Origin: Terrimonas sp.
GTDB taxonomy: Bacteria > Bacteroidota > Bacteroidia > Chitinophagales > Chitinophagaceae
Length of the DNA: 64,000 nucleotides
Reading direction: 5' to 3'
Assembly: GCF_003075435.1 (NCBI RefSeq)
Contig: NZ_QCZJ01000011.1
Location: 1-64,000 of the forward strand
Made by a program: the position numbers and the translations under genes. Positions 4,800-42,320 of this stretch are shown here, piece by piece. A model generated the notes under the pieces. The model had not been told where the DNA came from. It did no database searches and saw nothing but the letters and a program-made list of their open reading frames with translations. Within the stretch, counting starts at the first letter, position 1, and every line of letters begins with the position of its first letter.

Positions 4800-4826
4800 T
4801 AAAGAAGTTCTCTGCCTTTTAAAAAG

Positions 4827-4852
4827 TCCCGGCCCTGTGCCGGGATTTTTTT
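4827..4852 (+). terminator. intrinsic terminator of the OmpA/TSP3 gene
   Basis: TCCCGGC (4827-4833) pairs with GCCGGGA (4839-4845) around CCTGT and is followed by seven T. Confidence 0.9.
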
Positions 4853-4860
4853 ATTGGAGG

Positions 4861-5157: not shown

Positions 5158-5346
5158 AATAGCATACTTGTTTTATGAACTCATCTTTTATTGGTATCTC
5201 AAGAACCATTACTTCTCTGTATCTAAATCAACGCTCATAAAAATAAAATCGCTGAAAAAAATATTCACTTTAATTTTTGAGATTGATAAGGTTCAGATTT
5301 GGTCTACAGCAGTATTTTATCTGTTATTATTCTAAATAATTGCCTT

Positions 5347-5378
5347 GTTGGTGGTTAAAGATTGAGGTTTTATATTTG
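5347..5378 (+). promoter_or_regulatory. candidate promoter of the sigma/CHAT cluster
   Basis: A perfect -7 element TATATTTG lies at 5371-5378. A weaker -33 match (GTTG, 5347-5350) lies 20 bases upstream. The sigma factor ATG follows at 5419, about 40 bases downstream. This looks like housekeeping-sigma control, possibly in addition to autoregulation. Confidence 0.55.
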
Positions 5379-5418
5379 ATAATACGATAAGGTCGAGTAA
5401 ATACAGAATTGAAATTTG

Positions 5419-6033
5419 ATGAAGAACATAACTTGCCAGCAGTTGCTTAATATAGAAACTATTTCTGATGCTTTTAAAAACAATAAAATCCCCCTGTCTG
5501 AAAAAATAATTTCCTGCTTTTACTCCTGTTACCAGTCACTATTTATAAAATGGGCTAAAATTATGTATGGGCATTATTCACCCGATGTGATTGCATTTGC
5601 GGCCAATGATTCTTTTACAGATGGGGTGCTAAAGTTACAGGAAGCTGCCAGCCGAGGTAAACTTTATCAAAGCAATGCCAGTGTAAAAACGGTTTTGTTT
5701 CATTATTGCCGGTATAAACTTTTAGCGCAATTGAAAGATGAAGAGCGGCTGGCAGGAAAGAATAAAAAGCTGGCGCTTTTTTTATCAGGTCAAACCATGT
5801 ACAGTACTGAAACGGAAAATGAAATGCAGGAAAAAAGGCACGAACTTATTATGCGGGCTCTGGAAAAAATGACTGCCGAAGACAGGCAGATCATCCAGTG
5901 GCGGCATATTGAAGAAAAGACACCTGACGAGATCGCTGCACTTTTGGCTATTAAAGTACCATCTGCCACTAACCGTATTTACAGGTGCATGGAAAGGTTG
6001 CGGAAACTGGTGGAGGAGATGGACGAGAGATGA
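5419..6033 (+). CDS. ECF-type RNA polymerase sigma factor
   Basis: A 204-aa sigma-70 family protein of ECF size. An N-terminal region 2 (about 45-115, including LFIKWAKIMYG and SVKTVLFHYCRYKLL) is followed by region 4 (about 140-200: ALEKMTAEDRQIIQWRHIEEKTPDEIAALL and VPSATNRIYRCMERL), the -35-binding helix-turn-helix. I chose the ATG at 5419 over the TTG one codon earlier. The next gene encodes a membrane protein with an anti-sigma-like N-terminus, the usual pairing. Two exported TPR-CHAT proteins follow, so this factor probably answers an envelope signal and drives this cluster or a wider regulon. Sequence divergence in region 2 leaves the ECF group unassigned. Confidence 0.85.
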   Translation: MKNITCQQLLNIETISDAFKNNKIPLSEKIISCFYSCYQSLFIKWAKIMYGHYSPDVIAFAANDSFTDGVLKLQEAASRGKLYQSNASVKTVLFHYCRYKLLAQLKDEERLAGKNKKLALFLSGQTMYSTETENEMQEKRHELIMRALEKMTAEDRQIIQWRHIEEKTPDEIAALLAIKVPSATNRIYRCMERLRKLVEEMDER

Positions 6034-6039
6034 AAGGTT

Positions 6040-6128
6040 TGAGGTTTATGGTTTATCCTTAACTATAAACAAGAAATTATAAACGCACTATCGCTCAACC
6101 ACAAACTAAAAACCAGAAACTATAAATA
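6040..6128. repeat. phrase repeat between sigma and anti-sigma genes
   Basis: The gap contains GAGGTTTATGGTTTAT on one side and AACCACAAACTAAAAACC plus ACTATAAA phrases on the other, that is, the same words in both orientations. The same family recurs at 20577-20610 and 55178-55222. It could form a loose hairpin between the two genes. Confidence 0.5.
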
Positions 6129-6142
6129 TCTAAATTTCCGGT

Positions 6143-7024
6143 ATGAACATAACTACTGAACAATATCAAAAGATCATGCGTTTTCTTAATACGGAAATGG
6201 ACGATGCGGAAATGGACGCGTTTGAAAAAGAGCTGAACGCTAATCCGGAAATGCGTAGTCAGCTTGACTTTGAGCAATCAGTAAGAGATAGTTTTGCTTT
6301 GCGGCAAATAACCGTTATTCCGGGTGTTGAGCCTGTAAATACCATTAATAAAATTAGTAAATCAAACCTTAGCGTAAGGAGATTACAGGTATGGATTGCC
6401 ATTAGCGCCGCCGCTGTAACGGCAATTGTATTCCTTTCCATTTTTTTGAAAAAGACAGAAAAAAATGCAGTTACAGCCGGTTTCGGTACTAATAATATTG
6501 ATACAGCACAGCAATCAGCTATTCCACCGCAGGTGATGGTAGCAGAGCCAGTGCAAAAAGACAGCGTTGAGGTTATTGACCTGGTCGGCTTGTTTAAACA
6601 ATATTTTAAAAAAGATACTTTACCTGAACACTATCCTCTTTTCCTGGCCGAAGCTTTGATGGATTATGAATCGGGCAATTATAAAGCACTCCAACAATTA
6701 AATTTAAAGGACCTGCCTCAAACCCGTGGCGCTGATGAAACAGGCAGCAGGAAAAGCATTTTGCAACTGGGGTATTATTATAAAGGATTAGCTTTTTTGC
6801 AAACCGGTAATACCAATGAGGCTGTAGTTAATTTGAAATGGGTATTGAATAATCAACCGGATAAGAATTTACGTGCCAGAGCGCAATGGTACCTGGCTTT
6901 AATTCATTTAAAGGAAAATAACGGTGAGAAAGCTGCTAAGCTGTGCAGGAGTATTGTTGACAATAGGGAAAACGATATCCTCGTAAAAAACGCAGGAAAA
7001 ATACTGGATGCTTTGAAAAAATAA
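6143..7024 (+). CDS. anti-sigma-like single-pass membrane protein with periplasmic TPR region
   Basis: This 293-aa protein has an acidic cytosolic N-terminus (about 1-80) resembling short anti-sigma domains: FLNTEMDDAEMDAFEKEL followed by NPEMRSQLDFEQSVRDS. There is no zinc-binding HxxxCxxC motif and no FecR domain. One transmembrane helix spans about 83-102. The periplasmic part (about 140-293) is TPR-like: LAEALMDYESGNYKALQQL, YYKGLAFLQTGNTNEAVVNL and AQWYLALIHLKENNGEKAAKL. It lies 109 bases after the sigma gene and 21 before the first CHAT gene. I infer that it holds the sigma factor at the membrane and senses a periplasmic partner through the TPRs. Direct homology to a named anti-sigma family is not certain. 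Confidence 0.75.
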   Translation: MNITTEQYQKIMRFLNTEMDDAEMDAFEKELNANPEMRSQLDFEQSVRDSFALRQITVIPGVEPVNTINKISKSNLSVRRLQVWIAISAAAVTAIVFLSIFLKKTEKNAVTAGFGTNNIDTAQQSAIPPQVMVAEPVQKDSVEVIDLVGLFKQYFKKDTLPEHYPLFLAEALMDYESGNYKALQQLNLKDLPQTRGADETGSRKSILQLGYYYKGLAFLQTGNTNEAVVNLKWVLNNQPDKNLRARAQWYLALIHLKENNGEKAAKLCRSIVDNRENDILVKNAGKILDALKK

Positions 7025-7045
7025 ATTTGACTCCGAAAATATTTT

Positions 7046-9829
7046 ATGAAACTTTTTTTGGTGCTTGCAGGAATGTTTTTATGTCTGCAATCAGTTGCCC
7101 AAAAGCAAAATGATAAAGATTCAGCAGCATATTATTATAGTAAAGGGCAGTATGCCAGGGCGTTACCTTTTGCAAAGAAAAGCTTTGATAATGTAAAAAC
7201 ACTCAACAACGACGATACTGTATATATCTCTGCTTCATACACACTGGCTAATGTATACTACGGACTGGCAATGAATGACAGCGCTATGGCTTATTTTCTA
7301 AAATCCTGCAATGGAGCCAAGAAGCAATATGGAGAAAAGAGTCAAAAACATGGGAGATACCTTGTAGATGTTGCAGTGATGTACAGGGAATTGGGGAAAT
7401 TTGAGGAAGCAGAGCAGGCTTATCAAAAAGCTACAGCTATTTTAGAGAAAATAGATGTTCCCTATAAAAATGACTATGCCTTCAGTTTAATCCAGCATGC
7501 AAGCTTTTATCATTTAAGGGGTAATTTAAGTAAGGCGGAAGAATTATACCTTACTGCCAGCAATGTTGCACCAAAAGAGCCTCTCGAAAAGAAAACAGAA
7601 TATGCTTTAGCCTTACACGAGCTAGGCATGCTGTACGAAAAAATGGGTAATTATGATAAGCAGGAAACAACGCAGTTGCATGTATTGGGCATGCTGAAAG
7701 AGATGTTTGGCGAAAAACATCCTGCTTACGCCAACGCCTTAAATAATCTGGCAATCCTGTACTGGCGCAGGCACAAGCTTGAGAGGGCTGATTCAATGTT
7801 CAGCGAATCATTGAAAATCAATAAACAGGCCAATGGTGAAAACAGTACCGCTTACATTATGATCTTAAATAATTTAGGCCTCGTTAATGCCGAAATGAAG
7901 AGATATGAAACAGCAGAAAAATATTTAAAAGAAACTGTAGAAATAGCATACAAAAATGGTGGAGAAGAAACATTTCAATATCCTTTTTGCTTGAATGCCC
8001 TTGCCAAGTATTACGCCCGGACAGGTCGAAAAGAAATGGCAGAGCCATTGTTTCAAAAAACGCTCGCTATTTATAACAAACTTGGATTAGAACTAAATTC
8101 CAGCAGTCTGAGGCAATTGTATGATATGTCAAAGCTTTTATACGATGATGATGCAGCTAAAGCTACCATATATTTAAAAGAAGCAGTAGCAATAGAACAA
8201 AGGCTGCTGCTGGAAAAGCTGGATTTTTTATCCGAAACAGAACTGCTTGTTTATTTAAAAGGAAGATCTGTTTTTTTTGACAGGCCTTTCCTGTTTTTAA
8301 TGCGTCATAAAAGTCCCGAGATTGCCCGCGCAGCTTACAATAGCAGGCTGCTTGCAAACGGTATTGGTTTACAAAACACCAGCACTCTTTATCAAAACAT
8401 GGCGCAATCAACGGATAGCAATCTTGCTGTGCTTTGGAAAAAATACCTCCGGCAAAAGTCTTCTTATACCAACCTTTTATTAACACCTGCAAATAAAAGA
8501 AATGTCAACACAGATTCTGTTGCCGCCATCCTTAACCAACAGGAAAAAGATATACTGCGAAGATCAACAGATTACCAGAGCATGAAAGAAAAGCTTTCGA
8601 TCAAATGGCAGGATGTGCAGGCATATTTGCAACCAGGTGAGATAAGCATTGAATTTGTCAGGTTCAATTATAAATTTGACCTATACATTGATGCTCCTGC
8701 TGATACTGCATATTATGCCGCTTTGTTGCTTCGCCCGCAGGACACAGTGCCTCAATTTGTACTGTTGTGTGAGGAGAAACAGTTGGTTGACGCCTTAAAG
8801 AAATTTCCTTACAAAGCGGCTGTTAACAGCCGGGGAAGAAAACCGGTAGCTTACGACCAAACGCTTACCAATGCATTGTACAAACTGGTGTGGCAGCCAT
8901 TGGAGTCTTATCTTGCCAATACGAGAACAGTATACTTTTCGCCTGATGGTATACTGCACCGGGTAGCCTTTGCGGCTATACCTTACAAAAAAAATGCACT
9001 GCTCTGCGATAGATATAATCTTGTGCAGCTTACTTCTACCCGCCAGGTAGCCTTGCATGAAACCCGGCCACCTGCACCGGTTTCGATAGCTATGTTTGGC
9101 GGTATCAATTATAATCGTCAGTCAGTTGATACTTCTTCTGGCTTTTACGTCACTGAACACCCTGGCATTCGCAGCGCTGCTCCGGATTCATTCCGCTTTT
9201 TGCCCAATACTTTAACAGAGATCTTTACAATAAAAAGAGATGCCGAAACATTCCAAAAACGAACCGTTGCATTTACTGCAGATCATGCTACAGAAATGGC
9301 TTTCAGAAGCCTGGGCGGCAACAGTTCACCAGAGGTAATTCATTTTGCAACACACGGCTTTTCACTGCCTGATACTTTCGCTCAGGAAAATAATGCCGGC
9401 GTATCTTTTCATGTGGCAGATAATCCGTTGCTTCGCTGCGGGCTGGTAATGGCCGGAGGTAATAATGGATGGAAAGGTAAAGCCGGACCAAATGAAGATG
9501 ACGGTATATTAACAGGACTTGAAATAAGCGCCGTACAATTACCAAATACACAACTGGCAGTTTTGTCTGCCTGCGAAACCGGTTTGGGTAAAATAGAAAG
9601 CAGTGAAGGTGTATTTGGCTTGCAAAGAGCATTTAAGCTGGCAGGGGTTAACTATATCATGGCCAGTCTCTGGCAGGTGCCTGATAAAGAAACCGCTGAA
9701 TTTATGGAAACATTTTATGCGAATTGGCTGGACGGTAAAACCATTCGCGAAGCATTTTCCACTACACAACATACCATGCGAAAAAAATACGCGCCTTACT
9801 TCTGGGCGGGTTTTACATTGGTGCAATAA
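7046..9829 (+). CDS. exported TPR-CHAT caspase-like protease, copy 1
   Basis: The 927-aa product has a signal peptide (MKLFLVLAGMFLCLQSVAQ), so it acts outside the cytoplasm. A long TPR superhelix covers roughly 25-400, with repeats such as LNNLAILYWRRHKLERADSMF and LNNLGLVNAEMKRYETAEKYL-type units, then a linker helix region to about 560. The C-terminal CHAT domain (about 600-927) has the dyad motifs HFATHG with His770 and LSACETGLG with Cys843, and a well-preserved SEGVFGLQRAFKLAGV and SLWQVPDKET core. CHAT proteins are clan CD cysteine peptidases. Both catalytic residues are present, so it is probably active. A paralogue follows at 10223. Substrates are unknown. Confidence 0.92.
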   Translation: MKLFLVLAGMFLCLQSVAQKQNDKDSAAYYYSKGQYARALPFAKKSFDNVKTLNNDDTVYISASYTLANVYYGLAMNDSAMAYFLKSCNGAKKQYGEKSQKHGRYLVDVAVMYRELGKFEEAEQAYQKATAILEKIDVPYKNDYAFSLIQHASFYHLRGNLSKAEELYLTASNVAPKEPLEKKTEYALALHELGMLYEKMGNYDKQETTQLHVLGMLKEMFGEKHPAYANALNNLAILYWRRHKLERADSMFSESLKINKQANGENSTAYIMILNNLGLVNAEMKRYETAEKYLKETVEIAYKNGGEETFQYPFCLNALAKYYARTGRKEMAEPLFQKTLAIYNKLGLELNSSSLRQLYDMSKLLYDDDAAKATIYLKEAVAIEQRLLLEKLDFLSETELLVYLKGRSVFFDRPFLFLMRHKSPEIARAAYNSRLLANGIGLQNTSTLYQNMAQSTDSNLAVLWKKYLRQKSSYTNLLLTPANKRNVNTDSVAAILNQQEKDILRRSTDYQSMKEKLSIKWQDVQAYLQPGEISIEFVRFNYKFDLYIDAPADTAYYAALLLRPQDTVPQFVLLCEEKQLVDALKKFPYKAAVNSRGRKPVAYDQTLTNALYKLVWQPLESYLANTRTVYFSPDGILHRVAFAAIPYKKNALLCDRYNLVQLTSTRQVALHETRPPAPVSIAMFGGINYNRQSVDTSSGFYVTEHPGIRSAAPDSFRFLPNTLTEIFTIKRDAETFQKRTVAFTADHATEMAFRSLGGNSSPEVIHFATHGFSLPDTFAQENNAGVSFHVADNPLLRCGLVMAGGNNGWKGKAGPNEDDGILTGLEISAVQLPNTQLAVLSACETGLGKIESSEGVFGLQRAFKLAGVNYIMASLWQVPDKETAEFMETFYANWLDGKTIREAFSTTQHTMRKKYAPYFWAGFTLVQ

Positions 9830-10222
9830 GTTTTTTCAGGAAGGGTGATAATAGCGGGCAGGCAAGGGCTGTTAAGCGTATAGTACCGTATACCATATAA
9901 ACCTTAGTAACAGGCAAGTCATCACACACCTACCTTATTATCTCGCTGTGCAATTAATGTAATTAGGTATATCCATATTTTGCGGGAGTATTTTGGGTAC
10001 GTTTCAATTTTCCGTATTTAAAAATATGCCCTGCTTAATTACCGGTGAGCAAAGGTTAATGCATTCAGTAACCCTGTGCAATCCTAAACCAGCGAAAAAT
10101 TAAAATACGCCCTATTTTGCAGGCGCCCCTGCTCAAATAAAAGAAAATCATATATTAGTGAAAAATGTGGAAAAAATATTAGCCACTATAAGAAGGTGAT
10201 CTTTCAGTCTTAAAGGTATTGT
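9830..10222. other. intergenic region between the two CHAT genes
   Basis: No reading frame is convincing in these 393 bases. The first 75 or so match the sequence after the stop codon of copy 2 and of the CHAT relic near 15580, so a conserved 3' trailer accompanies each copy. The rest is AT-rich; I found no clear TAnnTTTG element before 10223. Confidence 0.6.
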
Positions 10223-13015
10223 ATGAAATTCTTTTTAGCATGTACGGGGATATTTTTTTGCCTGCAGTTATTTGTGCAGGCGCAGAGCGATATGGACTCG
10301 CTAAGATATTACATTGAAAAACGTCAAATGGCCAATGCGCTGCCTTTTGTAAAAAAGAATTTTGAAGCCATAAAAGATATCAGTAACGATGACAAAGTCT
10401 ATATAGCTGCTGCCAGTCGGTTAGCCGGCATTTATTATTCGCTTTCAAAGTTTGACAGTGCCCTGGTTTATTATGTACAAGCCTGTGAGAGGGCAAAAAA
10501 GCAATATGGAGAAACAAGCGCGCAATACGGGCAGCTTCTTGTATATGTTGCGACAATGTATACGAACGTAGGACAATTTCGGGAAGCCGGGCAGGCGTTC
10601 CAAAATGCAACTGTCATTTTAAGCGGAATGAAAAATTCAAATAAAAAAGCATATACCGAGTGTTTAAATGAGTATGTTTCTTTTTATTTGACAATAGGCA
10701 ATTTAAATAAGGCAGAGGAAATGTACCTGAGTGCACGTAAAATGGCGCTAACGGAACCTGTTGATACGATTGGCTACGCTTTGTCCCTGGAAAGGTTGGC
10801 CAGACTGTATAGAACAATGGGATTTTATGCAAAGCAGGAAGCCGTAGCAATGCAGGTATTTGAGATTATTAAGGAGAAATACGGAGAGGATCATTACAAA
10901 TCTGTCCCGGCTTTAGCTTCGTTGGGAGATGTATACCAGCGCAGACAAAACCTGGCGAAAGCCGATTCTATATACAGGAAGGCATTGAAAATTCAACAGC
11001 AGGTTCTGGGCAAAAAGGCTGCTAGCAATATTTATCTTTTGCGGCGTATAGGGATCGTAAATACAGAGATGGGAAAATACAGGGTAGCTGAAAAATACCT
11101 GAAAGAAGCGTTGGAAATTGTAAATGAAAATGGCGGGGAAGCATCGCCGCTTTATACCATTTGCAGCAATAACCTGGCCAGGTTGTATGCTTCATCCGGC
11201 AGAAAAGAGCTGGCAAAGCTTTTTTTTCAGAAATCTATTGCTATTTACAATAAGCTGGGTCTAACATTGCATTCTTCCCGTCTGAACTTACTATATGATA
11301 TGGCAAACCTCTTATGTACCGATGATCCCGCCGGGGCAGCTATATATTTAAAAGAAGCAATGGTTACAGAAAACAAGCTGCTGTTGCAAAAGCTGGATTT
11401 TTTATCTGAAACAGAATTGCTTGCTTATTTAAAGGAGATGAAAGATGCTGCCGACAACCCTTACCGGTTTTTGCTGAGCCATAAAAATCCTGAGATAGCA
11501 GGTGAAGCCTACAACAGCAGGTTGTTGATAAGCGGCATCGGCTTACAAAATACGAGGATGTTGTATCAAAATATGGCGCAGTCAAAAGATGATGAGCTTG
11601 CAGTACGCTGGGAAAATTACCTGCAGCAAAAGTCTTATTATACAACCCTGTTGCTGACACCGGTATCCCAAAGAAATACCAATACAGATTCTGTTGCCGC
11701 ACTCCTGAATCAGCAGGAGAAAGATATATTACGCAGGTCGGCAGCTTACAGGAATATGAAGGAGCAGCTTACCGTTACATGGCAGGATGTGCAAAAGCAT
11801 TTACAACGTGGTGAAACAGCTATTGAGTTTGTAAGGCTTAACGGGCAATCCTATACCTACACCGAAGCAAAAGCTGCTGATACTGTTTATTACGCGGCTT
11901 TGCTGCTTCGCCCGCAGGATACGGCGCCCCGGTTTGTAGTGTTGTGTGAAGAAAAGCAATTGATCGCTGCCATGAAAAAATTTCCTTACAAAGCGGCGGT
12001 TAACACAAGGGGGGAAAAGCCGGCAGCATACGACCAAAGCGCTGCAAATGACTTATATAAACTGTTATGGGAGGCATTGGAGTCTTATCTTACTGAAACC
12101 CAAACGATATATTTTTCACCTGCCGGTATGCTGCACCGCGTGGCTTTTGCCGCTATTCCTTACAACAAGAATGAGATGCTTTGCGATAAGTATAATCTTG
12201 TACAGCTAACTTCTACCCGGCAGGTAGCTTTGCGGGAAACCCACCCTTCTGCCCCTGTTTCGATAGCCATGTTTGGCGGTATCAATTACAATAGCCAGTC
12301 CGCTGATACAGGTGTTCCGGTATTTCCCGATCCCTATGCCTGGGTGTACCGCGAAAACCGTGGCGCCGATATAGATTCTTTTCGCTTTTTGCCCAATACC
12401 TTAACAGAGATCAATGCCATAAAAACGGATGCTGAAGCGCTGCAAAAGCTGCCTGTCATATTTACTGGCGGTAATGCTACGGAAGCTGCTTTCAGGAACC
12501 TGGGCGGAGATCATTCGCCGGAGGTCATTCATTTTGCCACACATGGCTTCACGCTTTCTGATACTGCGCAAAGCAGCAATGCCGGTGCACCCTTTAAGGT
12601 ATCAGATAATCCCCTGCTGCGTTGCGGGCTGATAATGGCGGGCGGCAATAAAGGCTGGAAAGGCAAAGCCGGACTGAACGAGGATGACGGTATATTGACC
12701 GGTCTTGAAATAAGTTCGGTACAATTACCAAATACACAACTGGCAGTTTTGTCTGCTTGCGAAACCGGGTTGGGGAAAATAGAAGGTAGCGAAGGTGTAT
12801 TTGGCTTGCAACGGGCATTTAAACTGGCGGGAGTAAACTATGTAATGTCCAGCCTCTGGCAGGTGCCTGATAAAGAAACGGCTGAATTTATGGAAACATT
12901 TTACTCCCATTGGTTTGCTGGGAAAACTATCCGCAAAGCTTTTTTAACTACACAACAAACCATGCGTAAAAAATACGCACCTTACTATTGGGCAGGTTTT
13001 ACGCTGGTGCAATAA
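10223..13015 (+). CDS. exported TPR-CHAT caspase-like protease, copy 2
   Basis: A 930-aa paralogue of the upstream gene in the same order: signal peptide (MKFFLACTGIFFCLQLFVQA), TPR array to about 400, linker, CHAT domain. Catalytic candidates are His774 in HFATHG and Cys846 in LSACETGLG. The last 120 residues are nearly the same as in copy 1, while the TPR part and the loop after SIAMFGGINYN differ more; copy 2 has extra residues around PVFPDPYAWVYRE. This pattern suggests tandem duplication with the protease part held constant and the recognition part free to vary, or gene conversion in the 3' half. Confidence 0.92.
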   Translation: MKFFLACTGIFFCLQLFVQAQSDMDSLRYYIEKRQMANALPFVKKNFEAIKDISNDDKVYIAAASRLAGIYYSLSKFDSALVYYVQACERAKKQYGETSAQYGQLLVYVATMYTNVGQFREAGQAFQNATVILSGMKNSNKKAYTECLNEYVSFYLTIGNLNKAEEMYLSARKMALTEPVDTIGYALSLERLARLYRTMGFYAKQEAVAMQVFEIIKEKYGEDHYKSVPALASLGDVYQRRQNLAKADSIYRKALKIQQQVLGKKAASNIYLLRRIGIVNTEMGKYRVAEKYLKEALEIVNENGGEASPLYTICSNNLARLYASSGRKELAKLFFQKSIAIYNKLGLTLHSSRLNLLYDMANLLCTDDPAGAAIYLKEAMVTENKLLLQKLDFLSETELLAYLKEMKDAADNPYRFLLSHKNPEIAGEAYNSRLLISGIGLQNTRMLYQNMAQSKDDELAVRWENYLQQKSYYTTLLLTPVSQRNTNTDSVAALLNQQEKDILRRSAAYRNMKEQLTVTWQDVQKHLQRGETAIEFVRLNGQSYTYTEAKAADTVYYAALLLRPQDTAPRFVVLCEEKQLIAAMKKFPYKAAVNTRGEKPAAYDQSAANDLYKLLWEALESYLTETQTIYFSPAGMLHRVAFAAIPYNKNEMLCDKYNLVQLTSTRQVALRETHPSAPVSIAMFGGINYNSQSADTGVPVFPDPYAWVYRENRGADIDSFRFLPNTLTEINAIKTDAEALQKLPVIFTGGNATEAAFRNLGGDHSPEVIHFATHGFTLSDTAQSSNAGAPFKVSDNPLLRCGLIMAGGNKGWKGKAGLNEDDGILTGLEISSVQLPNTQLAVLSACETGLGKIEGSEGVFGLQRAFKLAGVNYVMSSLWQVPDKETAEFMETFYSHWFAGKTIRKAFLTTQQTMRKKYAPYYWAGFTLVQ

Positions 13016-13270
13016 TTTTTTTGTAAAGGGTGATGATAATAGACAGTAATGGCTATTAAGTCTATGACAATACCGCCGTGTTGCTTCAGATGCTCAATAA
13101 TCGTTTTCAGTCATTGAGATAGATATTTTATTGACCGTTGCTTATTTGCCAAAGGTCTTTTTTCCGATGTGATTTTCGCAATAGAGTAATGGTTCGTACT
13201 GCATCTATGCATAAAGAAGTAACTCCGGCAACATTTTTTCTATTAACTGGCAAAACCTAAAACAATTACC

Positions 13271-13984
13271 ATGAGAATGAGTTACTACTTATTTAACCGG
13301 TTAATGGTTACTTTAATCTTACTGATATTGTATGGAGCAACTTCACTGCAAGCGCAAACGCAAATGAAGGACAGGGTTTATTTCGGTTTCAAATTCGGAG
13401 GTTATACCGGTCTTTACAAGGGTGATAATTATTTCTCGAAAGATTTAGGTTATAAGATCGGCTCCAAAAGCAATTTTCACGCCGGGGTCTTTTTGGAAAT
13501 TCCTACGTCAAAACATCTTGCTCTGCAACCCGAAATTCTCCTCTACGAAGGTGGGTATTATTGGTATACTGAAGAAAGGTTTGGCGCGAGAGGAGACAAT
13601 GGCGATTATGATGTCAATGAAGAACTGGGTTATGTAAGTATTCCCGTATTGCTCAAATACAAAGTAGGCGGCTTGGGTATTTATGCAGGACTCCAGCCCG
13701 ATTTCCTATTCTTCACTATGCGGGATATTGAAGGAAGGAGTACGTCTGCCAATGAAGATGATTTCAGGAAGGATTATAAGAAGGGCGTGTATTTATCAGG
13801 CATAGGCGGCATCGAATATACGTTTCGCTTTGGTCTCGGTGTAAGTGCCAGATACCAGTTAGGATTGACAAATATTGCAAATCCAACGCAATTGGGATTG
13901 TATGAACGAGGCAATAATATCAACACGAACGCTTTTCTCTACGGTATCCATTGGCGTATAGGCAAACCCCGAAAAGTATCATAA
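13271..13984 (+). CDS. outer membrane beta-barrel (porin family) protein
   Basis: The 237-aa protein has a signal peptide ending near TSLQAQ (about residue 30) and alternating hydrophobic strands such as VYFGFKFGGYTG, HAGVFLEIPTSKHLALQPEILL, YVSIPVLLKYKVGGLGIYAG and GVSARYQLGLTNIA. This is the pattern of the eight-stranded OMP_b-brl_2/PorT-like barrels common in Bacteroidota. It follows CHAT copy 2 by 255 bases and is the only integral outer-membrane candidate in the cluster. Whether it is a channel, an anchor or a receptor is not shown. Confidence 0.8.
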   Translation: MRMSYYLFNRLMVTLILLILYGATSLQAQTQMKDRVYFGFKFGGYTGLYKGDNYFSKDLGYKIGSKSNFHAGVFLEIPTSKHLALQPEILLYEGGYYWYTEERFGARGDNGDYDVNEELGYVSIPVLLKYKVGGLGIYAGLQPDFLFFTMRDIEGRSTSANEDDFRKDYKKGVYLSGIGGIEYTFRFGLGVSARYQLGLTNIANPTQLGLYERGNNINTNAFLYGIHWRIGKPRKVS

Positions 13985-14049
13985 AGCATATATATGGTTT
14001 ATAGAACTAAGAATTCTCAGATCAATTATCACAATCAAACAACTTTTAT

Positions 14050-14469
14050 ATGCGACACGTACAATTACTGGCACTGGCATTCATGTGTCTTCTATCAAGT
14101 TGCAAAAAAGACAATGAACCAAAAGGCAAATCGGGCGATATCATCGGCAAGTGGAAGATCGAACGCAAAGAAGAAATCTGGGGAGTTAATGGCACACCTG
14201 AAAATAAAGCCGTTGATTGTGAGTGGGTGGAATTTGGAACGGATGGAGAATTTATAGAACGTTTTACAGGCGACTATCAAGTGGTTAGCAGATGGAGCCT
14301 GCTTGGCAACGGGAATTTGGAAATTACTGCCAGTACCAATATTCCAGGAAGCCCTGATGGCTTGATCATCAAGTCACTTTCAGATAAATCAATGCACTTG
14401 TATTATAAAGGATTGTTTGGATCGTTTTATACTGAAGTGACTTATAATCTCTATTTGGTCAGGTTATAA
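14050..14469 (+). CDS. lipocalin-like lipoprotein
   Basis: A 139-aa lipoprotein with lipobox LLSSC (Cys18) and KKD after it. The mature part has the GKWKIERKEE start and the strand-rich end of Bacteroidota lipocalin-like domains (IIGKWKIE ... WVEFGTDGEF ... RWSLLGNGNLEI). Such domains may bind small hydrophobic ligands, but no function is fixed. A longer frame from 13994 to 14257 in another phase has no signal peptide and was left out. Confidence 0.7.
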   Translation: MRHVQLLALAFMCLLSSCKKDNEPKGKSGDIIGKWKIERKEEIWGVNGTPENKAVDCEWVEFGTDGEFIERFTGDYQVVSRWSLLGNGNLEITASTNIPGSPDGLIIKSLSDKSMHLYYKGLFGSFYTEVTYNLYLVRL

Positions 14470-14667
14470 CCTTAGCTTGTTACATGCAAAATGATATCTT
14501 TTCCGTCTTTAGCGACTGTTCTCCTAATATAAAAGCATTTCTATACTACCCTAATTTTCTCAAATGCAAATCATCTTAATACGAATGTCAATAAAGCGTG
14601 CTGGATAATAAGCTTGGGTTGGGATATTAAAATTTTAATGATGTTTCAAATTTAAACTATAAGTTAT

Positions 14668-15456
14668 ATGAATAGAAAATTTAAATTTTATTTCGTCTGC
14701 ATTGTGTTGCTGTTTTCATCGTTATACGGCGTCGCCCAGAAGAAAAAAAATATGATTCAATATAAGCCAATTCTTATGGCCAATGTGGAGGAGGCCTTTC
14801 CTGTAGCGGCTATGATTATTAACGACTCATATGGAATAAATATCAATAAACTGGATTGGGGTGCAAAGGAAATGCTTTCGGGATACTATCAATATCGAAA
14901 AATATTGGGGGTGTACCGTTTCAGGTTTCGATTGACAATTGATTCGGACAATACGCTAAATGTAGAGGCCAAAGAAGTACAAACAACTGATGCTAAAGAC
15001 AATTGGATGGATTATGTTGTAGAAAAAAGGGAAAGGGAAATTGTTGCAGAATTTGCAGAACAATTGAATCAAGCACTAAAAAAGCCCGATATAATAAAAA
15101 AGGCCCAGGAGCGCTTTTATACAGATTTAGACATAAATGCCTTATTCTTCTTTAGTGCAACTGAAGTTGCCGGAAAGCGATGGTTTGAAAATTTTATAAA
15201 AGGCAAAAGGGTAAATTGGAAGCTGACATTTGTGGATTTGACGGAAAACAAAAACTCCTCCTATAAATCCAAATATGTTGAGAACTATAATCTTGCGGTA
15301 GAGTTTATTAGTGGCGCTCAAACAAAATTTACAATAAAAAAATATACTGATTCAGATAAAAATGTAATGACTAAAAAAGGTAGTTCGGTTATAGTGGAAG
15401 GAACTTGTTTAAGCTTAAACTACAACAATGCATTCAATATTGTTTTGGTTGATTAG
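14668..15456 (+). CDS. secreted protein of unknown function
   Basis: A 262-aa protein with a clear signal peptide (ends SSLYGVAQ at residue 24). The mature part is mixed helix and strand with many Lys and Asp residues. I recognise no family. Conspicuous stretches are NDSYGININKLDWGAKE, a helical block around REREIVAEFAEQLNQAL, and FFFSATEVAGKRWFE. It belongs to the run of exported proteins after the CHAT genes and lies directly before the CHAT relic. Confidence 0.65.
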   Translation: MNRKFKFYFVCIVLLFSSLYGVAQKKKNMIQYKPILMANVEEAFPVAAMIINDSYGININKLDWGAKEMLSGYYQYRKILGVYRFRFRLTIDSDNTLNVEAKEVQTTDAKDNWMDYVVEKREREIVAEFAEQLNQALKKPDIIKKAQERFYTDLDINALFFFSATEVAGKRWFENFIKGKRVNWKLTFVDLTENKNSSYKSKYVENYNLAVEFISGAQTKFTIKKYTDSDKNVMTKKGSSVIVEGTCLSLNYNNAFNIVLVD

Positions 15457-15500
15457 TTGAATGACTTTTATTAGAAATATGGATATAAATACAACCACGA

Positions 15501-15531
15501 GGGCTTCCAACCTTTGGAAGGTTGGAAGCCC
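15501..15531. repeat. perfect 14-bp inverted repeat with 3-base loop
   Basis: GGGCTTCCAACCTT (15501-15514) is followed by TGG and its exact reverse complement (15518-15531). There is no T-run after it, so it is not a standard terminator. It sits 45 bases after a stop codon and about 15 bases before the CHAT relic. It may be the edge of a small mobile or REP-like element, or a transcript-end stabiliser. Confidence 0.8.
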
Positions 15532-15545
15532 CGCTTTATAATACT

Positions 15546-15640
15546 GTTACTCAGAGCGGATTTTACACTGGTGCAATAATTTTTTTCGGGCAGGGTGATG
15601 AGAACAGGTAGGTCACGGCTATTAAACGTATAGCAATACC
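15546..15640 (+). pseudogene. 3' relic of a third TPR-CHAT gene
   Basis: The sequence at 15556-15579 reads ADFTLVQ-stop, almost the same as the AGFTLVQ-stop ends of both intact CHAT genes. The next 60 or so bases match the trailer found after copy 1 (9830-9900) and, more weakly, copy 2. Nothing upstream of 15546 resembles the rest of a CHAT gene. The simplest reading is that a third tandem copy was deleted, leaving its last codons and trailer, with the hairpin at 15501 near the break. Confidence 0.75.
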
Positions 15641-15709
15641 AACGCAATGCATTAGGTATACAAATACCCTTAACTATGCTGGTATAATCTATGTGCAAAA
15701 AAGTCAGTT

Positions 15710-16543
15710 ATGAAGAAAACAATTATTTATTTTACCGTACTATTTTCCCTTTTAACTACCGCAGCACTAAGCCAAACCAAAACCACAACCAAGCCTGCAG
15801 CAAAGCCAGCCGCTACGGCAAAAGGCGATGCCCTTACCAACAAAAGTATAATTGACCTCCACAAAGCAGGGCTGGGAGATGAAATTATTCTTACAAAAAT
15901 TGCCCAGTCAAAATGCGCATTTGATCTTTCTACGGATGGACTTATTGACTTAAAATCAAAAGGCGTTTCGGCTGATGTTATAAAAGCAATGATGAATAAG
16001 AGTGAATCCGGGACAGGTAATTCCGCTATTAATACAGCAACTATAAAAGAGCCGGTCAAATCAAATAGTTCAGGCAAAACAGGCTCACCTTCTCCTGAAT
16101 TAATGAACCACGTGTATGTTTACGATAAAAGTAATCAATCTGCAAAACCACTTGAAAAGTCTGTTGCCGGTATACGCACCAAACAAGGCATGTTTGGTGG
16201 CAGCGCTATGCTGCAGGTAGATGGTGCAAAATCTGCCGTTCAAATTGCTCCAGCAGAAACTATATCTTTTGTAATTAATACCGGAGGTGCCACGCTTCCT
16301 GAACTTACATTATACAAACTAAAGTCTGTAAAAAATAAAAGAGAAGTTGCAAGTATGAAAGTAAATTCTTTTAGCGGGGTTAAAACCGGGGAAGATGTGA
16401 TCTCATTGAATATCTCCAAACTAAGTGAAGGGATATTTGAAGTTACTCCTGCAAAGAAACTGGAAAAGGGCGAATATTTTTTTACCGGGAAGCCGGCTGC
16501 CGGCGCCAATAGTATGGATGCATATACATTCGGGATAGAGTAG
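15710..16543 (+). CDS. secreted protein with Lys/Ala/Thr-rich linker, unknown function
   Basis: A 277-aa protein with a signal peptide (MKKTIIYFTVLFSLLTTAALS) and a low-complexity linker (TKTTTKPAAKPAATAKG). A small helical module follows at about 42-95, with NKSIIDLHKAGLGDEII, KIAQSKCAFDLS and LKSKGVSADVIKAMM. I have seen this type of module in other exported Bacteroidota proteins, without a known role. The C-terminal half is strand-rich and ends with YFFTGKPAAGANSMDAYTFG. It starts about 70 bases after the CHAT relic trailer. Confidence 0.65.
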   Translation: MKKTIIYFTVLFSLLTTAALSQTKTTTKPAAKPAATAKGDALTNKSIIDLHKAGLGDEIILTKIAQSKCAFDLSTDGLIDLKSKGVSADVIKAMMNKSESGTGNSAINTATIKEPVKSNSSGKTGSPSPELMNHVYVYDKSNQSAKPLEKSVAGIRTKQGMFGGSAMLQVDGAKSAVQIAPAETISFVINTGGATLPELTLYKLKSVKNKREVASMKVNSFSGVKTGEDVISLNISKLSEGIFEVTPAKKLEKGEYFFTGKPAAGANSMDAYTFGIE

Positions 16544-16599
16544 TAGAATATACTCCTGTTATCACATTACATTCATCATACGTCAAAAGCTTAATTTTT

Positions 16600-16983
16600 A
16601 TGTTATACAATGCAAATAAGATACACTACCTATTGATTGTATCACTTCTTACCACATTCAGTGCAAGCGCTCAAACGGTAAATGATATACCAATCAAAGA
16701 CATTGATGTTGAGTATATCCAGATAATAGGAACATCGAAGCCGTTTAGCAAAGGAGTTTCCATTCAGATTGATTTTGGGCAAAAAACTAAATTTTTTTCA
16801 ACCGGTAAAGAAACCGTATTGAAAGACAAAGACGGGAAAATAATGGATTTTAATTCTATGATTGACGCTTTAAATTTTATGGCAAAGAATGGTTTTGAAT
16901 TTGTGAATGCGTTTGCCATAGCAGTGAGTAATCAAAATGTATATCATTATTTGATGAAAAATATAAAGAATGAGTCGGAATAG
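16600..16983 (+). CDS. small secreted protein of unknown function
   Basis: A 127-aa protein with a signal peptide ending FSASAQ (residue 25). The mature protein starts with a strand-rich part (DVEYIQIIGTSKPFSKG, VSIQIDFGQ) and ends with a helix (MIDALNFMAKNGFEFVNAFA). No family recognised. It lies 56 bases after the previous gene and 54 before the next, consistent with co-transcription. Confidence 0.6.
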   Translation: MLYNANKIHYLLIVSLLTTFSASAQTVNDIPIKDIDVEYIQIIGTSKPFSKGVSIQIDFGQKTKFFSTGKETVLKDKDGKIMDFNSMIDALNFMAKNGFEFVNAFAIAVSNQNVYHYLMKNIKNESE

Positions 16984-17037
16984 GTTAAACTAAAAATCAA
17001 ATTAACATTATTTAATTTCATAACCACTAAGCCAATT

Positions 17038-17856
17038 ATGACTGCTGTTGATAAATACACCTTGATAATGCTGTCTGTTATTGCTTTAATATACGGTTGC
17101 TCAAAAGAAAAAGAGCCCGGAAACACAACCAATCCAACGGGGAACTGCAGAGTAAAAGAGGAAAACACGAGCGGAGAAATCCTGCAGCCCTACCGCACTG
17201 CTTACGAATTTAATAATGCAGGTTTTTTAACCAAAGAAAGTTATTTTAATAATGGTGATCTTACCTGGTATGAGGGTTACGAATATGATCAGAATGGTAA
17301 AATAACATCATGGTCGCAGTTTTCCCCGGGCGGACATATACGCGAAAAGCGTATCGCTTCCTATGGTACTGACGGGCGCATTTCAGGTTATACCAATATT
17401 CGTTGGGATGCATGGAGCATAGATACATCCTACTATTATTATGCTTATGAAGGCGATAAGTTTATTGGCTATACGCTTAGAGGTGCTGATACTACAAGTA
17501 AAATCATCAGGTACTACCAGGGTGGAAACCTCGTAAAAATGGAGTCGTTCAACGGTAATAATGAAATTGAAGAATATCAGATATATACTTATTCTGATGT
17601 CTTAAATAAAGAGTTTGAGCAGGAAAGTAATTTGGTACTTTTAAGCAGGGCACTTCCGAGTAAATATCTCCCGTCAACACGCAAGATATTTAATGTGGTC
17701 TTAGATAAAATTGAATATGATGAGTCATTTGGCTACATAACCAATTCGGAAGGATATGTTGTGGAAATGACGAATAAAACAACCAGGTATTTGGATACTC
17801 CGTATTCAAACCTGGAAGTTATTTCAACTACGAAATACACTTATCAATGCGATTAA
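17038..17856 (+). CDS. lipoprotein with YD-repeat-like strands
   Basis: A 272-aa lipoprotein with lipobox ALIYGC (Cys21). The mature part is a run of Tyr/Asp/Gly-rich strands of the kind seen in RHS/YD-type and DUF4595-like surface proteins: AYEFNNAGFLTKESYFNNG, YEYDQNGKITSWSQF, RIASYGTDGRISGY. It is likely surface-exposed or periplasmic. No enzymatic motif is visible. The family call is tentative; lipoprotein export is well supported. Confidence 0.65.
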   Translation: MTAVDKYTLIMLSVIALIYGCSKEKEPGNTTNPTGNCRVKEENTSGEILQPYRTAYEFNNAGFLTKESYFNNGDLTWYEGYEYDQNGKITSWSQFSPGGHIREKRIASYGTDGRISGYTNIRWDAWSIDTSYYYYAYEGDKFIGYTLRGADTTSKIIRYYQGGNLVKMESFNGNNEIEEYQIYTYSDVLNKEFEQESNLVLLSRALPSKYLPSTRKIFNVVLDKIEYDESFGYITNSEGYVVEMTNKTTRYLDTPYSNLEVISTTKYTYQCD

Positions 17857-17912
17857 ATAGTGGAGAGATAAATTTTCAGATACGATATATCTAACATTTA
17901 AACAATCAAAAC

Positions 17913-18254
17913 ATGGAAACCAACATCAACCCAAACATTCAAAAATCAAACGCATTTGACTGGAAAGATTTTCTTTCATTTAAAACAATGATTACTTTAA
18001 AAGTTATTCAGATCATGTACGTGGTAATTGCTGCTATTATTACCATTGCAGGCTTCATTACTATGTTCAGCGGCGGTAGTCGTGGCGGTTATGGTGGCTA
18101 TGGGTATGGTAGTTTGATGCCAGGTGGTTTTTGGGGAGGATTGCTGATGATTATTTTTGGAAACGTAATATGGAGAATATGGTGCGAATTGATCATTGTC
18201 TTCTTCCGTATCAATAAAAGTCTCAACAATATTGATGATAAAACCAAAGGTTAA
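17913..18254 (+). CDS. DUF4282 domain membrane protein
   Basis: A 113-aa protein with a short cytosolic start (FDWKDFLSFKTMITLKVIQ) and two transmembrane helices (about 32-52 and 70-95) separated by a Gly/Tyr-rich loop (GGSRGGYGGYGYG). The layout fits DUF4282: FxxF then MIT at the start, WR and E in the second helix (IWRIWCELIIVFFRIN). The function of DUF4282 is unknown. It is the only gene in the second half of the cluster predicted to stay in the inner membrane. Confidence 0.75.
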   Translation: METNINPNIQKSNAFDWKDFLSFKTMITLKVIQIMYVVIAAIITIAGFITMFSGGSRGGYGGYGYGSLMPGGFWGGLLMIIFGNVIWRIWCELIIVFFRINKSLNNIDDKTKG

Positions 18255-18296
18255 ACTGGAAGTATTTATCCTCGTAATTATTAAAATTTTCAATGT

Positions 18297-18707
18297 ATGT
18301 GTTATTCATCCTGTAAAATTTATGCTTCCGTAGCTAAATGTTTATTATGGGTATTGCTCATTTTTATTGTTGCATGTAGTTCTGATCCTAAAACTTTGAT
18401 AGTTAACCGATGGAAAGCTACGAGCGTACATGGAACTGAACAGGAAAAGGAAAAATGGGAAAAAAGATTTGAAAAAAAATCTTACGAGTTTGAATTTAAA
18501 GATAATGGTCAGTGCCTGATGTATGAAGGCGGGAGTTTAGAAACTGAAGCAAAATACACGCTGGCCACAGACAATAAGTCTGTCTTAATTACACAGGGAA
18601 ATCAAAGCTATACATTACAGATCATATCTCTCAGTAAAGAAAAAATGGAAGCTGTTACCAAAGGTTTCATGGCGCCCAGAGATACTATCATTTATATGGC
18701 CCAGTAG
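18297..18707 (+). CDS. small lipoprotein, lipocalin-like size
   Basis: A 136-aa protein with lipobox IFIVAC (Cys27). The mature sequence (LIVNRWKATSVHG, SYEFEFKDNGQCLMYEGG, YTLATDNKSVLITQGN) has the NRWK start and alternating strands of small Bacteroidota lipocalin-like lipoproteins. Ligand and role are unknown. It is 21 bases upstream of the next gene, so co-translation is likely. Confidence 0.6.
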   Translation: MCYSSCKIYASVAKCLLWVLLIFIVACSSDPKTLIVNRWKATSVHGTEQEKEKWEKRFEKKSYEFEFKDNGQCLMYEGGSLETEAKYTLATDNKSVLITQGNQSYTLQIISLSKEKMEAVTKGFMAPRDTIIYMAQ

Positions 18708-18728
18708 TATTAGCCTTAAATCGCATCT

Positions 18729-19820
18729 ATGTTTAAAAAGTGCGTAGCGTGTGTATTGTCTGCATTTTTGTTTATGCAGTTTTCTTATGGACAACGGACT
18801 GAAGCATTCACAGGGGTTTGGACGGGGAATGTTATACGTAATAACAATACAGCAGGTCGGTGTAAAGTATCGATCTCATCCATACATTCCGTGCAAACGT
18901 TTAATGTAAACAGTATAGGCAAATGCACGATTGAAATCGAATTATTCGATATGGTGGACAATCAGCGAAATACCAAACAGAATATAGAAGGGGAATATTT
19001 AAGATCGGGAGATACAAAAAATACAGAGCAGGTTTCTTTTAAAATATCCGTTCCTGATATTGAATACAAGCAACTGATTAAGGGTGAAATAAACTTTGCT
19101 TTTGAAGCAACAGGCGGGAAAATTGCTTTAACCGGAACCTTTTATCCTAACAATATATTTTCCAAAAAAAATTTCGGGGTTGAAAAATGGGTTCTTTTCA
19201 AAGACGATCAGGCTCGGTTGAAACCTGGAAGTGAGGATAAGATTAATGAGCATGCCGGCAGCGAGTCAACCGGTATTAGTTCTGTCCCAAAACCTGTTAT
19301 TCCTGAACAACCTCCCGTGGATTACAATAATTTCAATATGGATACTACCTCCATAAACTATCAAGGTGTAACTAAAAAAATAGATGCCAGTCCGGTGGTG
19401 AATGAAAGCTTTATAAAAGCATCCCCTGATAACGAAATGGAAGCTGATTATTTTACAGTTGATATTGATGGTGAAAAACTCAAAGTAACTGCAACAGGTA
19501 AAGTGAGTATGAGGCATAAATCCGGAAAAATATCTAATGCCTCATTAAATATTAAAACCGGGAATGCTATTACGAATCTTTACGTTATGAAATACAGCAC
19601 TGATATTATTTTGGGATATGAAGAATCAGATGGAGAAGATACCTACACGTATATTGCAAGACTGAGTTTTGCTACAGGACGTATCAAGTGGAAAACAAAT
19701 ATACCTGGGTTCAATTTAAAAGTATCATCGGGATCTAAGGATCAACAACCGTTTGTTTACATTACAACTTATGGTTTCATTGGTAAGTTAAACCCGGATA
19801 CAGGCAAATTAATAAAGTAA
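18729..19820 (+). CDS. secreted two-domain protein with PQQ-like beta-propeller blades
   Basis: A 363-aa protein with a signal peptide ending QFSYGQ (22). The N-terminal domain (about 23-165) starts GVWTGNVIRNNNTAGRCKV and is strand-rich. A Pro-rich linker follows near 185-200. The C-terminal part ends with motifs like PQQ or quinoprotein propeller blades: YIARLSFATGRIKWKTNI and VYITTYGFIGKLNPDTGKLIK. Only about two blades are present, too few for a closed propeller, so it may oligomerise or be a degenerate binding module. It is the last gene of the cluster and runs into a bidirectional terminator. Confidence 0.65.
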   Translation: MFKKCVACVLSAFLFMQFSYGQRTEAFTGVWTGNVIRNNNTAGRCKVSISSIHSVQTFNVNSIGKCTIEIELFDMVDNQRNTKQNIEGEYLRSGDTKNTEQVSFKISVPDIEYKQLIKGEINFAFEATGGKIALTGTFYPNNIFSKKNFGVEKWVLFKDDQARLKPGSEDKINEHAGSESTGISSVPKPVIPEQPPVDYNNFNMDTTSINYQGVTKKIDASPVVNESFIKASPDNEMEADYFTVDIDGEKLKVTATGKVSMRHKSGKISNASLNIKTGNAITNLYVMKYSTDIILGYEESDGEDTYTYIARLSFATGRIKWKTNIPGFNLKVSSGSKDQQPFVYITTYGFIGKLNPDTGKLIK

Positions 19821-19867
19821 AATACTAAACCCTATATTAAATTGTAGCATGATTTATTTGCTATAAT

Positions 19868-19899
19868 AAAAAGAGCCGCAATTTTTTACGGCTCTTTTT
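19868..19899. terminator. bidirectional intrinsic terminator
   Basis: AAAAAGAGCCG (19868-19878) and CGGCTCTTTTT (19889-19899) form an 11-bp perfect stem with A and T runs on both sides. It separates the end of the CHAT cluster (plus strand) from the end of dps (minus strand). Confidence 0.9.
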
Positions 19900-19949
19900 C
19901 GATTTAACTGACTGTTGCTTTTTTTCCTCAAATCATCTAAAAAATATCT

Positions 19950-42267: not shown

Positions 42268-42320
42268 ATTTACTTCTTTGTGTCTTTTGTGTAATCCTTT
42301 GTGTTTTTTGTGTAACCCCT
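42268..42320. repeat. single relative of the 88-bp repeat
   Basis: CTTTGTGTCTTTTGTGTAAT and CCTTTGTGTTTTTTGTGTAA repeat the wording of the array at 4861-5157. It precedes the GH20 start. The rest of 42207-42429 holds no gene. Confidence 0.55.

Follow-up and report, generated by a model that had tools for sequence, protein, structure and literature searches.

Why should genes for predicted exported cysteine proteases stand directly behind those of an extracytoplasmic function (ECF) sigma factor and an anti-sigma-like membrane protein? The question is raised by a module at positions 5419–19899 of a 64-kb stretch of DNA from Terrimonas sp. (assembly GCF_003075435.1, contig NZ_QCZJ01000011.1, positions 1–64,000; "the window" below means this whole stretch), in which the proteases combine tetratricopeptide repeats (TPRs) with a CHAT domain. 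We find that the core of the module consists of the sigma, anti-sigma and CHAT genes only, and that this triad is real and widespread in Bacteroidota. We propose that it is a new form of protease-regulated ECF signalling, by a mechanism set out below.

The core genes of the locus

All genes of the module lie on the plus strand. The first (5419–6033; 204 amino acids (aa), with an alternative TTG start three bases earlier, at 5416) encodes an ECF-type sigma factor, which matches the NCBIfam sigma70-ECF model TIGR02937 with 62.2 bits (cut-off 42.9) over residues 35–197 and, in region 4, Pfam Sigma70_r4_2 (PF08281) with 35.9 bits (cut-off 25.7). Region 2 is absent from the Pfam matches of the protein. 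The sigma and anti-sigma proteins of an orthologous locus (L022) were also folded as one fused chain (predicted local distance difference test (pLDDT) 79, predicted template modelling score (pTM) 0.49), a model used for fold matches only; its top Foldseek match was E. coli sigmaE (1or7), aligned over 203 columns at E 8.6e-4, with a TM-score of 0.41 for the length of the target.

Directly 3' of the sigma gene, the second gene (6143–7024; 293 aa) encodes an anti-sigma-like protein with an N-domain, a single hydrophobic helix at residues 83–101 as judged by hydropathy, and C-terminal TPRs seen as matches below the Pfam cut-offs at about residues 210–283. A single transmembrane helix encoded directly behind an ECF sigma factor matches the layout of class I membrane anti-sigma factors. 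The N-domain occurs on other proteins as well, and in all six loci fetched from about 28 N-domain-only matches it is encoded directly 3' of an ECF sigma gene; one of these six proteins carries carboxypeptidase-regulatory and TonB-like parts. Around the transmembrane helix of 35 anti-sigmas of the family, lysine and arginine number 139 before versus 68 after, and a cytosolic N-terminus with the TPRs outside is favoured in 30 of the 35.

The protease gene is present twice. CHAT1 (7046–9829; 927 aa) begins 21 nt behind the anti-sigma gene and is followed by CHAT2 (10223–13015; 930 aa). Both proteins match Pfam CHAT (PF12770; 198.8 and 194.2 bits, cut-off 24) and contain many TPRs, and their catalytic His/Cys pairs are H770/C843 and H774/C846, respectively. 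Across 37 sigma-linked CHATs, down to 15% identity to CHAT1, these two residues are invariant. Hydropathy windows, used in place of trained signal-peptide predictors, place an N-terminal hydrophobic segment in CHAT1 and CHAT2, which are accordingly annotated as predicted exported proteins. By the same windows, such a segment is present in 50 of 51 linked CHATs, and 36 of the 51 have one at the C-terminus; in the exception to the N-terminal rule, L084, the segment lies in a separate open reading frame (ORF) directly upstream of CHAT. The N-terminal segment is not confined to linked CHATs, since most unlinked ones in the sample have it too.

Searched against the PDB, a profile of the CHAT domain had its best match in the CHAT domain-containing protein 8rot/8rw5 (E 2.3e-10), followed by the TPR-CHAT chains of Craspase (8d9h, E 1.5e-7), with separase as a weak match; the profile alignment placed the His and Cys on the HGEAN and ACET motifs of the 8d9h chain. 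A fused fold of the periplasmic part of the anti-sigma and CHAT1 (pLDDT 77, pTM 0.48) again served for fold matches only. Its CHAT part (residues 716–1124) matched separase 5fby (Z 23.5, 311 residues aligned with a root-mean-square deviation (rmsd) of 3.8). Csx29 7y9x was matched by most of the chain (Z 25.9, 491 residues, rmsd 20.6); the top-ranked rows were other TPR proteins. As evidence of contact between the two proteins the fused fold was rejected: a long predicted helix (174–229) that starts in the anti-sigma, crosses the linker and ends in CHAT was taken as an artefact. By profile, and in the case of CHAT1 also by model, CHAT1 and CHAT2 resemble caspase/separase-like cysteine proteases, with a predicted activity. 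A first-pass annotation of the window had named a sigma factor, a membrane anti-sigma-like TPR protein and two TPR-CHATs with His/Cys dyads, with 21 bases between the sigma pair and the CHAT gene; ORFs, profiles and the measured gap bear this out.

The triad recurs in relatives and in paralogous modules

With the window's locus designated type I, six other type I loci (L020, L022/L117, L021/L120, L116, L118 and L119) encode sigma, anti-sigma and a single CHAT in the same order, at identities to the window of 62–70% for sigma, 50–61% for the anti-sigma and 59–69% for CHAT. Five of these loci, all that a scan of genome contigs with CHAT1 yielded, are from metagenome-assembled genomes labelled Chitinophagales, Chitinophagaceae or Bacteroidetes. 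Concerning the gene order laid out in the first-pass annotation, relatives keep the triad but the small downstream genes only partly.

The Terrimonas genome itself has six CHAT genes. Two paralogous modules repeat the order sigma/anti-sigma/CHAT, one at C5 (type II) and one at C3, near 178 kb (type III), the latter with a 504-aa S8 subtilase lipoprotein between anti-sigma and CHAT. A fourth CHAT locus consists of a lipoprotein-like gene and CHAT without sigma, and a fifth encodes a CHAT protein of about 1800 aa without a signal segment. CHATs of about 1800 aa without signal segment or sigma pair are found at L010 (4513–9906), L044 and L046 and form a separate CHAT clade in the genus.

Type III loci of many genomes share an upstream gene of about 203 aa. 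Both loci tested for a subtilase, L009 (4183–5697) and L097 (8775–10076), have a lipoprotein of this kind (Pfam S8) beside CHAT, located in the anti-sigma/CHAT interval in L009 and between a divergent sigma pair and CHAT in L097. In the remaining type III loci this position is taken by an ORF of comparable length.

CHAT and the sigma pair are linked across Bacteroidota

For a wider count, CHAT genes were picked by Pfam alone in a genus set of 12 genomes and a phylum sample of 80, the Terrimonas genome being included in both; 42 genomes of the phylum sample have CHAT, and the phylum counts cover the 79 genomes other than that of Terrimonas. In the genus, 24 of 37 CHAT genes lie no more than 5 kb from a full-length TPR-anti-sigma, or 25 of 37 if G004 is counted, where gene ends on two contigs (L036 and L124) were taken as pieces of one split gene. 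In the phylum, 27 of 66 CHAT genes (two rows of G118 C61 being one gene and merged) are near a TPR-anti-sigma, versus about 0.18 expected when the 34 best anti-sigma matches (E below 1e-20, nearly all full length) are scattered randomly over a total taken to be 272 Mb. These 27 loci fall into six families (f1, f18, f24, f33, f36 and f40), and eight of them represent one conserved f40 neighbourhood, in which two unrelated genes separate CHAT from the pair.

The arrangement of the three genes varies. It is collinear in types I–III, L063, L067 and L100, and convergent in L076, where CHAT is followed by anti-sigma and sigma on the opposite strand. In L084, L087 and L089–L093 CHAT is nested between sigma and anti-sigma, which lie on the opposite strand, and L066, L080, L085 and L095–L097 are divergent. 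The link between sigma pair and CHAT survives rearrangement.

Co-inheritance is also seen in the gene trees. On the CHAT tree, built from 95 of 103 proteins (eight with a domain match under 200 residues or none were left out), the linked state changes 12 times, versus a minimum of 23 and a mean of 31.7 in 1000 shuffles. Types I, II and III are monophyletic in all three gene trees (35 triads) and coexist in G000, G002 and G005. Distances correlate at 0.88 for sigma/anti-sigma, 0.86 for sigma/CHAT and 0.93 (r = 0.928) for anti-sigma/CHAT, and none of 2000 permutations was as high. Within types I, II and III, the correlation is 0.73, 0.96 and 0.66 for anti-sigma/CHAT and 0.18, 0.93 and 0.50 for sigma/anti-sigma, respectively.

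Sigma matches without a full-length TPR-anti-sigma within 9 kb were counted as unlinked (L055, L058, L073, L105, L108–L111 and a weak one in L031). In L055 and L058, CHAT converges with the gene of a single-pass anti-sigma-like protein, which has a Cys-containing N-domain and a non-TPR outer part, and beyond this gene lies sigma; L073 has a short anti-sigma-like gene, and L105 has none. L108–L111, from four genomes of two other families, present a second, non-TPR CHAT/sigma neighbourhood: CHAT, then a convergent exported-looking protein of 287–377 aa, then sigma, with a thymidylate kinase-like neighbour of about 206–209 aa (289 aa in L110). Three sigma/TPR-anti-sigma pairs of the genus, at L121 (6699–8037), L122 (5610–6976) and L123 (5689–7055), have no CHAT nearby, so the pair can exist alone; they offer controls for its role in the absence of the protease.

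Putative promoters of the triad

Housekeeping promoters of Bacteroidota have the consensus TTG at −33 and TAnnTTTG at −7. A putative promoter of this type, TTGG-N19-TATATTTG (5348–5378, plus strand), lies 40 nt before the sigma ORF of the window. Reading of the sequences showed the 8-mer TATATTTG to be kept before sigma in all seven type I loci, and the best dyad shared among them, TTGG-N17-TTTA, occurs in five of the seven, versus two to four in 20 shuffles. Measured against this consensus, the type I triad promoter looks like one of the housekeeping kind. The triad is probably made constantly, as suits a sensor, because a housekeeping-like promoter precedes sigma.

Elsewhere on the plus strand, TAnnTTTG occurs inside CHAT1 at 8671 (TTG 19 nt before) and, as a borderline case, at 18152 (145 nt before 18297, TTG 18 nt before); the sites at 7022, just before CHAT1, and at 6289, 9091 and 12225 have no TTG at 18–21 nt. 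Apart from the borderline site, no TAnnTTTG with a well-placed TTG was found before CHAT2 or the next seven ORFs, and a general promoter scan gave 59 sites versus 54.9 expected. Type III loci have a conserved dyad TATC-N18-TACC before sigma in 7 of 10 cases, which may be an ECF promoter, making autoregulation possible in this type. Before the downstream genes, no shared dyad rose above shuffles.

Small downstream genes and CHAT copies

Nine ORFs follow CHAT2 (13271–19820), where the first-pass annotation had counted eight small exported or membrane genes. The first encodes an outer-membrane beta-barrel protein (13271–13984, 237 aa; Pfam OMP_b-brl_2, 3.2e-15), followed by a small lipoprotein-like ORF (14050–14469, 139 aa), three predicted exported proteins (14668–15456, 262 aa; 15710–16543, 277 aa; 16600–16983, 127 aa), a lipoprotein-like ORF (17038–17856, 272 aa), a DUF4282 membrane protein (17913–18254, 113 aa; Pfam 1.2e-14), another small lipoprotein-like ORF (18297–18707, 136 aa) and a predicted exported protein (18729–19820, 363 aa). 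The 277-aa gene (by genus search), the 127-aa and 136-aa genes (by comparison of orthologues) and the DUF4282 gene were classed as accessory, the others as neighbours. A terminator hairpin with a T run (19868–19899) separates the module from the convergent ORF 19950–20465, in agreement with the co-directional genes and strong terminator described earlier; a general hairpin scan with a loop limit of 8 missed it, probably because its loop is longer. A common direction up to a single terminator is not proof of one transcript. Apart from the 21 nt before CHAT1, the gaps along the module are, in order, 109, 393, 255, 65, 198, 253, 56, 54, 56, 42 and 21 nt, and those of 393, 255, 198 and 253 nt leave room for additional promoters. 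Beyond the terminator and the convergent ORF, and outside the module's unit, a 497-aa subtilase lipoprotein (Pfam S8) is encoded at 20766–22259.

In the fetched flanks and at E 1e-4, relatives of the nine ORFs lie 3' of the orthologous CHAT at L117 (four), L118 (two) and L119 (one, the barrel, 37%); L020 has one as a 43-residue match only, and L116 and L120 have none. No small gene has relatives in more than two of these six loci. Among the 12 genus genomes, the 277-aa gene is present in G000 and G001 only, both times beside the triad, plus one 38% match elsewhere in G000; the DUF4282 gene is also found beside the G001 triad, and G008 has a partial match to it with no CHAT in the vicinity. The small downstream genes are accessory and not core, and the earlier inclusion of the small exported genes in the module is not supported. 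Since they are not core and the triad promoter looks housekeeping, control of the CHAT gene by sigma, as first proposed, is not the best reading.

CHAT1 and CHAT2 are tandem duplicates with 73–85% identity over long matching DNA stretches (repeats D1–D4 in CHAT2), and in each of the six orthologous loci the only CHAT is more similar to CHAT2 than to CHAT1. The end of CHAT1 and its conserved 3' flank (copy 1, 9801–9883, plus strand; repeat D7, alignment A7) recur behind CHAT2 as a second copy of the flank (core at 13028–13046, plus strand, by sequence comparison) and at 15551–15633 (plus strand; repeat D7, 80% to the CHAT1 end) as a relic, comprising the last codons and 3' flank of a third CHAT copy. 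The flank is a non-coding stretch with the core GGGTGATGATAACAGGCAGG..GGCTATTAA, found 3' of the CHAT stop codons in several orthologues. Besides the three window sites, it was located at L116, L119, L118 (near 15820) and L117 (between 12843 and 13043), and the CHATs of L118, L120 and L020 are followed by a diverged version or by none. In the window it marks the CHAT relic upstream of the 277-aa gene. It may be an RNA element, a recombination scar or a repeat; an Rfam scan of 4800–20000 gave no match. Just before the sigma promoter, an 88-bp tandem repeat of 3.4 copies (98% alike) occupies 4859–5158, with a 62% copy at 22391–22461 and a similar-looking 21-bp array at 42276–42315.

Discussion

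A precedent for the triad exists in type III-E CRISPR, where, according to PMC10028731, an allosteric switch in the TPR arm of Csx29 (catalytic residues H615 and C658) leads it to cut Csx30, which inhibits an ECF sigma factor. As with Csx29, Csx30 and CASP-sigma in that system, a TPR-CHAT, a sigma inhibitor and an ECF sigma are encoded together at our locus. The first-pass annotation mentioned Csx29 as a cytosolic TPR-CHAT but did not draw this parallel for the whole trio. In contrast to type III-E, the CHAT appears from hydropathy to be exported and not cytosolic, and the TPRs of the inhibitor are predicted to be periplasmic; unlike Csx30, the inhibitor is a single-pass membrane protein. A search of the Terrimonas genome for RAMP proteins (Cas7-type, PF03787) gave no match, with matches in 4 of 14 genomes in the control search, and the genome therefore has no type III-E system.

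We tentatively favour, at somewhat less than an even chance, a protease-gated envelope sigma switch in which CHAT would open the anti-sigma and free sigma. The triad, its recurrence in several arrangements, its co-inheritance, the intact dyad and the fold are computed, and the topology is predicted. The single-pass anti-sigma would use its N-domain to retain sigma in the cytosol and would extend its TPRs into the periplasm, the compartment of the exported TPR-CHAT. There, the TPR arm of the protease would sense a ligand or partner and turn on the CHAT domain, which would then cut the anti-sigma, or a partner bound to the TPRs of the anti-sigma, in the manner of a site-1 protease. This first cut would lead to the usual intramembrane and cytosolic steps and to sigma release. 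In sister modules, the C-terminal helix would anchor CHAT at the membrane and a subtilase lipoprotein precedes it, which makes a short cascade of periplasmic proteases likely there. The lipoprotein of L009 and that of L097 would act as a further protease in this chain, or be its substrate. We infer sigma binding, anti-sigma cleavage, the signal and the regulon, and we lean to the protease-gated switch because the two proteins probably share a compartment, the genes stay together through rearrangement, the dyad is invariant and Csx29/Csx30 provide a precedent. An M50 site-2-type protease is encoded in the genome (PF02163, 174.4 bits at C32), making a second cut possible; it is also present in 14 of 14 control genomes and hence not specific.

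Several observations weigh against such a switch. The type I CHATs have no C-terminal anchor helix, and the fused fold gave no usable anti-sigma/CHAT1 interface. No named anti-sigma domain (zf-HC2, RseA or FecR types) was found among the 25 Pfam families listed, out of 42, for 34 family members. In the type I anti-sigmas, lysine and arginine number 24 versus 22 around the helix and an inside N-terminus is favoured in 3 of 7, showing no positive-inside bias; the topology of the window's anti-sigma therefore rests on its family. A location of the anti-sigma TPRs and CHAT on the same, periplasmic side, as proposed earlier, is thus predicted family-wide, but not from type I alone; the TPR–TPR contact and the cell-fate role of the first-pass annotation gained no support. 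Within types, the sigma/CHAT correlation is absent in type I (−0.04) and weak in type III (0.30), as opposed to 0.95 in type II, and shared species history explains part of the distance correlations. Moreover, 39 of the 66 phylum CHATs, some at contig ends, have no TPR-anti-sigma within 10 kb. In the reverse direction, CHAT is close to 23 of 26 full-length genus anti-sigma matches and 27 of the 34 best phylum matches, counts biased by an anti-sigma profile (A1) that was trained on linked members, which leaves 3 and 7 anti-sigmas, respectively, without CHAT nearby; outside the training set, the matches linked to CHAT are 17 of 24 in the phylum and 2 of 5 in the genus.

CHAT could instead be an output of the sigma factor, which, freed by some other signal, would switch on CHAT and the small exported proteins, with CHAT degrading envelope or surface proteins in stress or cell fate. 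Such a role would fit the single direction up to one terminator and the one intergenic region that sigma and the CHAT operon share in divergent modules. The lack of a good TAnnTTTG/TTG before CHAT2 or the next seven ORFs makes read-through or an ECF promoter possible, and the TATC-N18-TACC dyad of type III (7 of 10) could be an autoregulated promoter. However, the type I triad stands behind a conserved housekeeping-like promoter, the small genes are only partly conserved, types I and II, like the nested and convergent loci, have CHAT beside the anti-sigma, and the downstream genes share no common dyad above shuffles. We therefore consider the output role the less likely of the two.

Less probable still is a conflict or immunity effector, whose TPRs would recognise a foreign or self-derived envelope molecule and whose CHAT domain would activate a partner such as the subtilase or a lipoprotein, the sigma pair tuning expression. 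Csx29, another TPR-CHAT, does serve in a CRISPR system, CHAT copies were duplicated and lost at this locus, and partner genes differ among modules; yet PADLOC returned a generic TPR model only, in three of six proteins scanned, the modules are co-inherited, and the roughly 203-aa gene upstream of type III loci recurs in many genomes. The invariance of His and Cys in the 37 linked CHATs makes it very improbable that CHAT is a non-proteolytic TPR scaffold which binds the anti-sigma TPRs and thereby sequesters or frees the anti-sigma, although TPR–TPR contact is plausible and a non-cleaving partner that protects an anti-sigma is described for TonB-dependent transducers (PMC11637429). A neighbourhood without function, arisen by chance or hitch-hiking, would find some room in the eight of 27 phylum loci that are a single f40 neighbourhood with two unrelated genes between. 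It is hardly credible in view of six families, several arrangements, 27 linked loci against about 0.18 expected, and a linkage that follows the CHAT tree, with 12 changes versus at least 23 in shuffles.

A protease-gated switch would resemble several known designs. Separase is a eukaryotic, cytosolic or nuclear protease with cohesin as its substrate, and shares with the proteins described here a helical-repeat arm and a CHAT-related domain. In FecR/PupR cell-surface signalling, the gene behind that of the ECF sigma factor encodes a single-pass anti-sigma whose periplasmic part serves as sensor, and a TonB-dependent transducer takes part; at our locus TPRs replace the FecR domain and a CHAT protease replaces the transducer. 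As for DegS and RseP acting on RseA, an ECF sigma, a single-pass anti-sigma and a protease on the periplasmic side (predicted here) come together, whereas the protease is a CHAT with a TPR arm and not a PDZ serine protease. No S1C/PDZ site-1 protease, RseB or DegS domain was found among the Pfam matches of the module proteins. Among the matches listed from the open-licence full-text literature, none was an exported CHAT with a sigma pair, the only related case among them being Csx29; texts with both "CHAT domain" and "sigma factor" concerned type III-E CRISPR or unrelated mentions (PMC12691664, PMC8055020).

It is possible, though less likely than not, that the exported, separase/caspase-like TPR-CHATs are a previously undescribed class of site-1 proteases acting on ECF anti-sigmas, in which protease and substrate alike carry TPRs; the type III-E trio would in that case be a cytosolic, RNA-triggered version of this older envelope design. 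If so, the exported CHATs of Bacteroidota, which have no described role among the literature matches listed, would gain a testable job, the opening of an anti-sigma, and a single Cys-to-Ala change in CHAT should freeze one sigma regulon. The triad would then stand for an envelope-stress or surface-signal pathway of a new type, and be a candidate source of the Csx29/Csx30/sigma trio.

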